44,008 bases of DNA from positions 1-44,008 of the IMG/VR virus record IMGVR_UViG_3300038678_000061; one strand, given 5' to 3'. Below are positions 20,080 through 27,859 of the stretch, piece by piece; position 1 is the first letter of the stretch, and each line of letters starts with the position of its first letter. The stretch is from a virus. A program made the position numbers and the translations under genes. The notes under the pieces were generated by a model that saw nothing but the letters and a program-made list of their open reading frames with translations, ran no database searches and was not told the origin of the DNA.

Positions 20080-20201
20080 TTAGCGAGGCCAGGAATGAAA
20101 CACAAACTTAAAAATAGAAACCCCTTGTTATGGATGCCGGTTGCTGAAAGGCGCTGGAGCGGCTCATTCCCGTTCGCTAACTCCATAACAGGGGGTTTGT
20201 G
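20080..20201 (+). other. Long hairpin with possible pseudoknot, intergenic
   Basis: A 17-bp stem (20118-20134 with 20182-20198, one G-T pair) closes a 47-base loop. In addition TTAGCGA (20080-20086) upstream pairs perfectly with TCGCTAA (20174-20180) in that loop, giving a pseudoknot, and CACAAAC (20101-20107) could pair with GTTTGTG (20195-20201) as an alternative. The gene-free stretch 20034-20218 holds nothing else. No T tract follows. It could be an RNA, a replication origin fold or a recombination site; the stem contains GTTATG/CATAAC like the cassette sites. Confidence 0.65.
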
Positions 20202-20218
20202 CGTTTAAGGGGCTTATT

Positions 20219-25486: not shown

Positions 25487-25699
25487 ATGAATCTACAAGA
25501 TGAATTGCTAAAAACAGGGAAAGCCGACGCGACAGCACAACCGGGCTGGTATGTGAAAACAAATGAAGAAGCCGAATATTTCTGGTATAGAAAAGACACG
25601 CATGAAGTTATCAGAGAATTGCGAGTCAGTGAAGCGTTTGGCTATATTTGGAAATCCTACCAATGCCCAAGATTTGACAACCTGAGTAAAGTATTATAA
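25487..25699 (+). CDS. Hypothetical small protein
   Basis: A 70-residue protein from ATG 25487, preceded by gggagaatgacc, a ribosome-site variant shared by several accessory genes here. 'TAQPGWYVKTNEEAEYFWYRKDTHEVIRELRV' suggests a compact beta domain. Its last 26 bases form the promoter at 25674. Unrecognised. Confidence 0.55.
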   Translation: MNLQDELLKTGKADATAQPGWYVKTNEEAEYFWYRKDTHEVIRELRVSEAFGYIWKSYQCPRFDNLSKVL

Positions 25700-25702
25700 A
25701 AT
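25674..25702 (+). promoter_or_regulatory. Strong sigma-70-type promoter before tRNA-like RNA 2 and terminase
   Basis: TTGACA at 25674-25679, a 17-base spacer and TAAAAT at 25697-25702. The start near 25709 gives a leader of about 280 bases that contains tRNA-like RNA 2 before the small terminase gene. Confidence 0.83.
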
Positions 25703-25792
25703 AATAACTTATACCCTCGGAAGATCCTTGTCGGCATGTATGGCAGCACTCTTCAAATCGCAAGGAAGGAAGGATTGTTTAATTAATCAGGT

Positions 25793-25972
25793 TGAGAGAT
25801 AGTGGCGGAATAGGTAAACGCTGTTTGGGAATCCTTCCTCTGATTGCTGGTATATGTGCCAGAACGTAGAAAAGGAAATTGTAGGGTGACTATACAGGTA
25901 ACAAATTGATAGCTTAATAAATAGGGGACAATAGCTGGCGCCCCATCCTGTCAAATCCCTGCCTATCTCTCA
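25793..25972 (+). ncRNA. tRNA-like RNA 2 with interrupted T-loop
   Basis: Ends pair over 10 bases, TGAGAGATAG/CTATCTCTCA (25793-25802/25963-25972). The D-arm is GCG/CGC (25805-25807/25819-25821) with loop GAATAGGTAAA, including the GG and A of real D-loops. T-stem GTAGGG/CCCTGC (25881-25886/25957-25962). The T-loop is split by an inserted stem ACAGG/CCTGT (25894-25898/25947-25951). The middle has CTGGTA/TGCCAG and TTCCT/AGGAA stems. Compared with RNA 1, D-arm, T-stem and the flanks GGGTGACTATAC and GTCAAATCCCTGC are conserved while outer and inserted stems change on both strands. It lies in the leader of the terminase genes. Confidence 0.8.
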
Positions 25973-25991
25973 CATTTAAGAAAGGTAAGTT

Positions 25992-26516
25992 ATGAGTGAA
26001 GAAGAAAAGATTGATAAGCGTATAGGCAACCGTTTCTGGGAGATGCGAAGCACTCACGGACGCAACCCCATATTCAAAGATTCGGCTCAATTATGGGATG
26101 CCTGTATTCAATATTTCGAATGGGTAGAACAAAACCCCTTGAAGGAACAAAAGCTTTTTAGCTTTCAGGGAGAAACCCACACCGGAACCGTTGACAAAAT
26201 GCGGGCTATGACCATCGGGGGGATGTGTATATTTCTTGATATATGCGAAAAGACTTGGGCAAACTACCGGAATAATAAAGATTTTTTACAAGTCGTTATG
26301 AGAGTTGAGCGAGTCATAAGAGATCAGAAGTTCTCTGGAGCCTCGGCAGACCTCTTGAATGCGAATATTATTGCACGGGACCTCGGTCTCAAAGATATGA
26401 CAAGCATTGACCATTCAGGGGGCATATCCTTTGCAGACGGCCTTAAGAAGATAGGCGAAACAGTAAAGGCGAACCCGGAGCTTGAAAAGAAGCTTGAAGA
26501 TGAATTGACCGATTAA
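25992..26516 (+). CDS. terS: Terminase small subunit
   Basis: A 174-residue protein with the pattern of DNA-packaging small subunits of this phage group: 'GRNPIFKDSAQLWDACIQYFEWVEQNPLKEQKLFSFQGETHTGTVDKMRAMTIGGMCIFLDICEKTWANYRNN' (including the HTH-like central part) and 'FSGASADLLNANIIARDLGLKD'. It recognises phage DNA and starts packaging with the large subunit at 28463; eight or so genes lie between them, which is unusual. The stop codon lies inside the closing stem of the RNA at 26512-26647. Confidence 0.85.
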   Translation: MSEEEKIDKRIGNRFWEMRSTHGRNPIFKDSAQLWDACIQYFEWVEQNPLKEQKLFSFQGETHTGTVDKMRAMTIGGMCIFLDICEKTWANYRNNKDFLQVVMRVERVIRDQKFSGASADLLNANIIARDLGLKDMTSIDHSGGISFADGLKKIGETVKANPELEKKLEDELTD

Positions 26517-26647
26517 GTATTTAAGGGTGGGCGGTTCAACTCCGTCGGAGGTGAGTACGGTGGGCGGGTTCAATTCCCGTCAGGCGAGTGGGGAGGGTCC
26601 CAGCCTAAACGGGTAGCCGGAAGAGCCTCCACCCTTAAATACTTAAT
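26512..26647 (+). ncRNA. Structured RNA with two T-arm-like hairpins (Y-RNA-like layout)
   Basis: A 19-bp perfect helix (26512-26530 with 26629-26647) joins the ends. Inside are two hairpins that look like tRNA T-arms: GGCGG-TTCAACT-CCGTC at 26530-26546 (its first pair competes with the outer helix) and GGCGGG-TTCAATT-CCCGTC at 26563-26581, each with a 7-base T-loop. A GGGA/TCCC hairpin follows (26591-26601). A long end helix plus tRNA-like elbow parts is the layout of bacterial Y RNAs (YrlA), but I cannot confirm membership and no Ro60-like gene is present. It is not followed by a T tract typical of terminators. Confidence 0.78.
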
Positions 26648-26676
26648 AAAAAATTGACCGACTAAGGAGAAGACCG

Positions 26677-26877
26677 ATGAATAAGTGGATAGATGTTGAA
26701 GATAGATTGCCAGAATTTGGGCCTCATATAGTTTGTTTGAAAAGCAAAAGCGTAATGGAAGCAAATTTCTCTCCTATACCTCACGCATATTGGTTCAAGA
26801 TCGGTGTTGACAAGATACATCCCGACAACCCCGTTACTCACTGGATGCCATTACCGGAACCGCCTAATGCCAAATAA
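26677..26877 (+). CDS. DUF551 protein
   Basis: A 66-residue complete DUF551 protein: 'KWIDVEDRLPEFGPHIVCLKSK...AYWFKIGVDKIHPDNPVTHWMPLPEPP'. Ribosome site aaggagaagaccg. It is the best-preserved of the three DUF551 genes here and shows that the domain normally begins within a few residues of the start codon, unlike the cassette-borne copy at 17009. Unknown function. Confidence 0.85.
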   Translation: MNKWIDVEDRLPEFGPHIVCLKSKSVMEANFSPIPHAYWFKIGVDKIHPDNPVTHWMPLPEPPNAK

Positions 26878-27088
26878 ACAACTAATCAAAAGACTACGCG
26901 AAGCCTTCAACCTACCTGAAAGCATGGTATCGGATGAAAAGGTTTTGGTGTGCACAAAGGACACTTTAATTCGTGCCGGAGTTGAGTTTAATATGGCGGC
27001 TGAGCCGTTAATTGATGCGCTGAAAGAAGAGTTTCGGCGGGTAACGGCAAAGATGCCAGTAAATTTTATTAGGGGGAGGGTTGACTGA
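26867..27088 (+). CDS. Hypothetical protein
   Basis: A 73-residue protein starting at ATG 26867 within the DUF551 gene's end. Helical ('NKQLIKRLREAFNLPESMVSDEKVLVCTKDTLIRAGVEFNMAAEPLIDALKEEFRRV'). Its stop overlaps the YopX-like gene start. No family recognised. Confidence 0.55.
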   Translation: MPNKQLIKRLREAFNLPESMVSDEKVLVCTKDTLIRAGVEFNMAAEPLIDALKEEFRRVTAKMPVNFIRGRVD

Positions 27089-27453
27089 TGAGAGAGATTA
27101 AGTTTAGGGCTTGGGATGAAGAATTAAAATTTATGGTAAATGAGTATATTTATTTTGTTGGTTTTGATGGGAGTGTTTGGTTTAATAATTGTGATAATAG
27201 CGGAGATGATCTAATTGACCAGACATCTAAGTTGAAGATCATGCAATTCACCGGCCTCAAAGATAAGAACGGCTTGACAGAATTATATGAAGGTGATATT
27301 ATAGATGTAAATGGATTAAAGGTAGGTAATCAATATGAAAACAAAGGACTACTCCAAGACCCAACTAATCTCCTTATACAGGGATTTGGAACATCGACTT
27401 GGGAGGCAACCAACAAAGAAGCAATGGGGAGAGGATGCAAATACTCCGAGTGA
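27088..27453 (+). CDS. YopX-like protein, truncated by HNH gene
   Basis: A 121-residue frame. The first 80 residues are a YopX N-terminus: 'REIKFRAWDEELKFMVNEY...LKIMQFTGLKDKNGLTELYEGDIIDVNG'. After 'EGDIIDVNG' the family pattern stops and the remaining 40 residues are unrelated, because they are out-of-frame reading of the HNH gene that begins at 27335. It therefore looks like a YopX gene broken by a homing-endonuclease insertion or replaced at its 3' end. Confidence 0.75.
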   Translation: MREIKFRAWDEELKFMVNEYIYFVGFDGSVWFNNCDNSGDDLIDQTSKLKIMQFTGLKDKNGLTELYEGDIIDVNGLKVGNQYENKGLLQDPTNLLIQGFGTSTWEATNKEAMGRGCKYSE

Positions 27454-27859
27454 TATGCCCATTAGATGCAATTTTGGAACATGGAATGCTTTTGTATTAG
27501 AAACTGGGGGGGAACCATATAAACCTTATTTGTCTGAATTAGCAAAGAAAAATAAAATACTTGCAAAGAAGGGCAAAAGAAGTAGCAATTGGAAGGGCGG
27601 GAGAATCCTTGATAGATTAGGTTATATTCAAATTTGGATGCCAGATCACCCAAATTCAAAAGGTGGTGGCTATATTCATGAGCATAGACTTATTATGAGC
27701 AATCATCTTGAAAGACCATTAGAACAACAAGAATCAGTACATCATAAAAATGGTATTAAGGATGATAACAGATTAGAGAATCTTGAATTAATGACAAAAA
27801 GGGTGCATCGTGGAATTGTAGAGTGTCCCCATTGTCGTGAGGAGTTTTCGATAAGATGA
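27335..27859 (+). CDS. HNH homing endonuclease
   Basis: A 174-residue protein beginning inside the YopX-like gene. Residues 1-60 form an HNH-associated DNA-binding repeat ('LEHRLGRQPTKKQWGEDANTPSDMPIRCNFGTWNAFVLETGGEP'). The nuclease follows: 'HEHRLIMSNHLERPLEQQESVHHKNGIKDDNRLENLELMTKRVHRG' with the catalytic VHHKNG and N residues, then a CPHC zinc-type end. Free-standing homing enzyme; its position overlapping a truncated YopX gene suggests recent insertion. Confidence 0.88.
   Translation: MKTKDYSKTQLISLYRDLEHRLGRQPTKKQWGEDANTPSDMPIRCNFGTWNAFVLETGGEPYKPYLSELAKKNKILAKKGKRSSNWKGGRILDRLGYIQIWMPDHPNSKGGGYIHEHRLIMSNHLERPLEQQESVHHKNGIKDDNRLENLELMTKRVHRGIVECPHCREEFSIR

Follow-up and report, generated by a model that had tools for sequence, protein, structure and literature searches.

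A small RNA locus at positions 26512–26647 of the 44,008-nucleotide stretch of viral DNA analyzed here (the window) separates two genes in the DNA-packaging operon of a phage and almost certainly belongs to a real RNA family. Its fold is conserved, it is read from one strand, and it is spread over unrelated phages. The family is absent from Rfam 15 and undescribed; our full-text literature searches returned no paper describing such an RNA. On the modeled structure, we give an even chance to the proposal that this is a new phage-borne family of nested T-arm modules acting in trans as a mimic of the tRNA elbow. An earlier note on this DNA had described a structured, T-arm-mimicking RNA, likened its design to that of Y RNAs, and pointed to its place beside the terminase small-subunit gene; the structured mimic stands, whereas a Y RNA identity and a functional tie to terminase are not supported.

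Location and fold of the element

The gene 5' of the element is a P22 gp3-like terS (PF16677), and the gene 3' of it is a DUF551 gene. An HNH homing-endonuclease-like gene (27335–27859) lies between terS and terL, 0.7 kb downstream of the element. The locus is bounded by a perfect 19-bp inverted repeat with arms at 26512–26530 and 26629–26647, and, as the earlier note had claimed, the 5' arm contains the terS stop codon TAA (26514–26516). The runner-up perfect inverted repeat in the window (arms within 300 nt) measured 13 bp, and among 100 windows simulated with a first-order Markov model the longest reached 16 bp, compared with the 19 observed. The folding energy computed for 26512–26647 was −65.2 kcal/mol versus −43.9 ± 4.0 kcal/mol in shuffles (z = −5.4; 0/200). 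Because T-arm 1 and helix 2 (26547–26552/26625–26630) compete with the two innermost pairs of the 19-bp repeat, the closing helix measures 17 bp in the fold common to the relatives described below, for which the computed energy is −61.7 kcal/mol with tertiary contacts left out.

All parts of this fold lie on the + strand. The 5' arm of the closing helix (helix 1; 26512–26528, reaching 26530 as the DNA inverted repeat and holding the stop codon) is followed by T-arm 1 (26530–26546; GGCGG-TTCAACT-CCGTC), which has a 5-bp stem, corresponds to model positions 1–17, and shows covariation. With no spacer, the 5' strand of helix 2 comes next (GGAGGT, 26547–26552), with two-sided changes in five of the six pairs. 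The GAGTA side of an internal loop (26553–26557) contains the AGUA of a loop-E/bulged-G signature, conserved in the alignment and assigned to this motif by sequence; it leads to the 5' strand of a stem, CGGT (26558–26561), that is invariant in 11/11 sequences. T-arm 2, or hairpin 3 (26563–26581; GGCGGG-TTCAATT-CCCGTC), has 6 bp including one G-U. Hairpin 4 (26582–26606), delineated by the fold and the covariation analysis, reads (A)GGC, a GAG bulge, and TGGGG on one side and TCCCA and GCC(T) on the other. Both T-loops (TTCAACT and TTCAATT) and the GGGA/TCCC hairpin had been listed in the earlier note and are present where it placed them. In the alignment, the linker AAACGGGTA (26607–26615) carries the GG found together with the second T-loop. 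The remaining segments are the GCCG strand of the invariant stem (26616–26619; covariation analysis), the GAAGA side of the internal loop (26620–26624; alignment), the GCCTCC strand of helix 2 (26625–26630; covariation analysis), and the 3' arm of the closing helix (26631–26647; inverted repeat, fold, and own-versus-cross pairing). Computationally, our model shows a three-way junction of the closing helix, T-arm 1, and helix 2, in which helix 2 leads through the AGUA/GAA loop and the invariant CGGU/GCCG stem into a domain formed by T-arm 2, the bulged hairpin, and the linker.

Rfam at gathering thresholds gave no match anywhere in the window, and ARAGORN reported 0 tRNA genes and no tmRNA there. 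Under relaxed Rfam thresholds, the two T-arms were the only matches, as tmRNA-model fragments (13.3 and 6.9 bits; cut-off 47). We rejected tRNA identity for the element on the ARAGORN result, the lack of an Rfam tRNA match, and the lack of a cloverleaf; tmRNA identity was rejected on finding T-arm fragments only in Rfam and none by ARAGORN.

The position and the fold bear on the main rival to our proposal, namely that the RNA works in cis on transcript processing or stability and marks boundaries within polycistronic phage transcripts, in this case the one separating terS from the gene that follows. The closing helix starts at the terS stop codon, a helix of this length would block exonucleases, and T-arm 1 adjoins a 6-bp helix without a spacer, giving a T-arm 1/helix 2 stack that resembles the T-arm/acceptor stack recognized by RNase P and other tRNA enzymes. 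The distal domain (T-arm 2, hairpin 4, and AGCCGGAA), however, is the most conserved part of the RNA yet would be unnecessary for punctuation, and we judge the cis-acting reading possible but on the unlikely side.

On either side of the element lies one copy of a direct repeat (14/15 nt) of the last terS codons, also read on the + strand. The left copy, AATTGACCGATTAAG, forms the end of terS (26503–26517), and the right copy, AATTGACCGACTAAG, lies at 26652–26666 with 14 of 15 positions identical. From the sequence, this arrangement suggests that the element may have been inserted with a short duplication.

Other stretches of the window also drew our attention. Upstream of terS, 25793–25974 contains a tRNA-Leu-like D-arm, with 21 nt identical to Enterococcus phage stretches. 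In it a 10-bp TGAGAGATAG/CTATCTCTCA helix around ~150 nt replaces the anticodon arm, and the T-arm appears broken; this stretch has no Rfam match, and its fold z is only −1.4. An intergenic stretch at 20107–20209, in which 47 nt are flanked by long imperfect inverted arms of 28 nt with 82% complementarity, is possibly a further structured RNA.

Relatives and a covariance model

BLAST identified relatives in the Klebsiella phages BU9 and KP13-27, which share the doubled T-arm and the conserved words with the window but have a closing helix entirely different in sequence. Pattern scans of IMG/VR added L007, L055, L067, L085, and L155; among the matches listed for the first T-arm pattern scan (at least 80 loci), most were ordinary tRNA genes. 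We built a covariance model, R1, solely from four unrelated viral contigs (L055, L067, L085, and L155). R1, built without the window, matched 26530–26630, the family core, at 85.2 bits (E = 4.2e-19), and Klebsiella-type copies scored 56–63 bits. The pattern of the last scan consisted of hairpin 4 and AGCCGGAA alone, with no T-arm or closing-helix sequence in the query, and R1 recognized three of its matches, L220, L222, and L225, at 60–86 bits.

The window shows every feature of the R1 family: T-arm 1, helix 2, the AGUA/GAA loop, the CGGU/GCCG stem, hairpin 3, the GGC(GAN)UGGG/CCCAGCC hairpin, and AGCCGGAA. In L220, L222, and L225, the loop-E signature is reduced to GUGUA or UAGUA. From viral scans that depend on exact patterns, the family comes to 11 sequences in all, representing nine phage lineages (L004, L005, and L007 count as one). 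BLAST searches started from L067, L085, L155, L220, L222, and L225 led to no named phage with the family other than the Klebsiella pair. When ~85,000 bacterial and archaeal genomes were scanned with a pattern that would have missed L220, L222, and L225, none of the 33 matches was a family member. Under strict filters, which divergent members may escape, R1 had no match in 369 gammaproteobacterial genomes or in 394 genomes of Demequina's class.

Covariation and strand

Two-sided changes were found in 13/27 base pairs, and 94.9% of cells pair across the 11 sequences. The covariation score was 0.457, compared with 0.135 ± 0.022 in shuffles and at most 0.094 when partners were slid by 1–3 columns; the alignment behind these values was fitted to the R1 structure, a bias in its favor, and this structure was drawn from four sequences, with which the other seven agree. 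The CGGU/GCCG stem and hairpin 4 are nearly invariant and hence give little information on pairing. An invariant U-G pair would read C-A on the opposite strand, indicating that the RNA corresponds to the + strand of the window.

These data also address the view that the locus is no more than an inverted repeat in DNA or a terminator of transcription. The outer arms do form a perfect DNA inverted repeat, but the internal helices covary, the invariant U-G pair exists on one strand only, the T-loops and the AGUA/GAA loop are conserved, and no terminator-like site was found at the element. The leave-out match of R1, the covariation, and the strand-specific U-G pair largely refute this view, which we find very hard to credit.

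The closing helix and the second T-arm

Each of L220, L222, and L225 carries T-arm 1 and a long closing helix, and its hairpin 3 has a T-loop. The doubled T-arm and end helix that the earlier note had singled out are, in other words, confirmed in 3/3 members fetched with neither in the query. A matrix of own-versus-cross flank pairing showed a member-specific closing helix in five of the nine lineages, each with another sequence. The flanks of the window paired with each other at −22.9 kcal/mol, those of the Klebsiella copies at approximately −20, and those of L220, L222, and L225 at −34.7, −25.5, and −14.6 kcal/mol, respectively; cross pairing of the window's 5' flank with other members gave −2.8 to −9.4 kcal/mol. 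In the same matrix, the flanks of L055, L067, L085, and L155 formed no specific closing helix. The window, the Klebsiella phages, L220, L222, and L225 make up a long-helix subgroup, defined by at least 11 pairs and a T-loop in hairpin 3.

The second T-loop is present in seven of the nine lineages, and a GG in the linker is found in exactly the same seven; L055 and L155 have neither. Nine lineages are a small sample, in which one arrangement in 36 would give this association by chance. The co-occurrence is as predicted by a contact like that between the T-loop and the D-loop in the tRNA elbow.

Genomic context of the family

Exonuclease genes neighbor the element in L055, with an integrase in the same stretch; a helicase gene adjoins it in L067, Erf-like and polymerase-exonuclease genes in L085, and RecE-like and SSB (recombination) genes in L220, and in L225 it lies near tRNA-Gly. 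The L155 element follows terL and is the only other copy near a terminase gene, and the closest terS relative that we found, L210 (60% identical), has no element after terS. A functional link to terminase, next to which the earlier note had placed the element, is not borne out, with relatives lying beside other genes. We rejected a terminase-linked packaging RNA because members adjoin varied genes, L155 being the one exception outside the window, and a gene-specific riboswitch because relatives lie beside different genes.

The Klebsiella copies sit on one arm (CACAAC/GTTGTG) of an RNA that has a tmRNA-like tag frame; in IME11, HK620, MK54, VLCpiS10a, and Bullseye_ER20, this arm bears other inserts. 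This tmRNA-like RNA (L004 2210–2750 and L008–L013) is found in many enterobacterial phages, with swappable inserts at one arm. The tag-like frame encodes ANEEMYLAVA or ANDDVVLMAA before a stop; 784 phage records contain a match to part of this RNA, it is unannotated in the records read, and the Rfam model tmRNA_permuted matches it below threshold only. Further RNAs lie beside other members. In L225, 995–1110 is a tRNA-like RNA that has an acceptor, a D-arm, and a T-arm, and in which an unusual insert replaces the anticodon arm; a real tRNA-Gly follows. In L085, three structured stretches surround the member (40–420), each starting or ending with AACAAAGATAA / TTATCTTTGT, and one of them resembles a tRNA in which another sequence takes the place of the anticodon arm.

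The context could also suit a mobile or swappable passenger, an RNA module kept by recombination with no phage function. Such a module would fit the direct repeat flanking the window element, the missing element in L210, the exchange with other inserts at the tmRNA-like RNA arm in Klebsiella and E. coli phages, and the scatter across unrelated phages. Compensatory changes over nine lineages nevertheless indicate selection on the RNA fold, and no transposase or mobility gene is linked to the element, the HNH gene in the window being the only one nearby, so that we regard a functionless passenger as improbable.

The cis-acting reading gains from copies that are co-directional between genes (window, L222, and L055) or placed in RNA arrays, and loses from the Klebsiella copy, which is embedded in another structured RNA. 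Because the neighbors are unrelated and several copies lie beside tRNA, tRNA-like, and tmRNA-like RNAs, we consider a stable RNA acting in trans more plausible than a gene-specific regulator; in the window itself a cis role is conceivable, since the element lies inside an operon.

Y RNA features

We fetched real YrlA loci for comparison (up to 92 bits), which run in the order closing stem, T-arm, acceptor-like hairpin, D-arm, and closing stem. The YrlA model RF02553 had no match in the window at the gathering threshold, none at E ≤ 10 in 25600–26900, and none in BU9 or the L007 record, and R1 gave only weak, T-arm-like matches on the YrlA loci. The D-arm (GCUC...GGUAGAGC) is absent after the acceptor-like hairpin, where the linker is ~8–20 nt long, holds at most GG, and is stemless. 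The conserved Ro-binding stem (GGCGAAUGC / CUUGUCGCC) is absent as well, the closing helices being unrelated in sequence and either uninterrupted or missing. No TROVE (PF05731) gene was found in the member records searched, some of which are fragments, and a Ro60 encoded by the hosts is conceivable. The phage carrying L222 encodes an RtcB RNA ligase (L222 5685–6782); the gene is absent from the other member records (1/11 with the gene). Salmonella YrlA is located in the rsr-rtcBA operon (PMC7790460).

On the features tested, the phage RNA is outside the YrlA family, and the Y RNA assignment did not hold up. A divergent Y RNA scaffolding host Ro60 (Rsr) and PNPase would account for a closing helix around a permuted tRNA-like module, ordered as in true YrlA loci, and for RtcB in one member phage. 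Against the missing RF02553 match, D-arm, Ro-stem motif, and TROVE gene, and with RtcB confined to a single record, this possibility is slim.

In the tRNA arrays of large phages (L015, L031, L042, and L079), we also observed an RNA in which a CGTACGG/CCGTACG helix surrounds a T-arm, an acceptor-like hairpin, and a D-arm-like stretch. This RNA is permuted tRNA-like, follows the YrlA order, and scores below the Rfam cut-off.

Discussion

The modeled fold makes it probable that the RNA is a tRNA-elbow mimic. The loop of T-arm 2 would dock on the linker GG, as the T-loop does on the D-loop in the tRNA elbow, and the distal domain would represent a reduced, circularly permuted elbow nested in the T-arm three-way junction. 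We propose that the RNA is transcribed with its operon or stable-RNA cluster, that the closing helix would insulate it, and that it may occupy in trans a host factor reading the tRNA elbow or T-arm. Candidates include TruB, TrmA, RNase P, and ribosome/tmRNA factors, for which the RNA could be a decoy or a scaffold, a role in trans that we suggest tentatively. In its fullest form, which is likewise speculative, the model holds that two nested permuted tRNA-elbow modules used in trans, sometimes grafted on a tmRNA-like RNA, might divert a host elbow-reading factor. If true, such an elbow-capturing phage noncoding RNA would be an RNA mimic unlike any described class. As judged from sequence, the cis-acting processing or stability element would be the main competitor of this model, and the Y RNA and mobile-passenger readings appear less likely.

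The family adds a member with strong covariation to the few phage-encoded structured RNAs known. Its nested T-arm design leads to specific predictions, namely T-loop modification and binding of tRNA-elbow-reading enzymes, and the presence of two members in the cultured Klebsiella phages BU9 and KP13-27 makes expression and deletion testable in existing systems.

Compared with YrlA (RF02553), the phage RNA shares a closing helix and a permuted tRNA-like module (stem, T-arm, acceptor-like hairpin, stem) and, by analogy, may act somewhat like the YrlA module; it differs in having a second T-arm and the AGUA/GAA loop and in lacking the D-arm, the Ro-stem motif, and a Ro60 gene. As in tRNA, where the T-arm stacks on the acceptor, T-arm 1 (5-bp stem, 7-nt TTCRANY loop) is stacked on a helix, and T-arm 1 of L220 and L222 matches phage tRNA genes by BLAST. 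Unlike tRNA, the phage RNA is permuted, has no anticodon arm or acceptor end, and is missed by ARAGORN. In relation to tmRNA (RF00023, RF04321), the element is without a tag reading frame, a CCA acceptor, or a full-model match, whereas its T-arm hairpins score as tmRNA fragments and the Klebsiella copy is placed in a tmRNA-like RNA. The T-arm side precedes the acceptor 5' side, as in the permuted tmRNA form (PMC11915505). The tag-less tmRNA-like RNA of mycobacteriophage DS6A, according to work cited in the same paper, is reported to inhibit host tmRNA in E. coli. That RNA is set apart by its description as a CDS-less tmRNA, against two T-arms and no tmRNA match in the present family; as described, both are phage-encoded tRNA-like RNAs without an ordinary decoding function.
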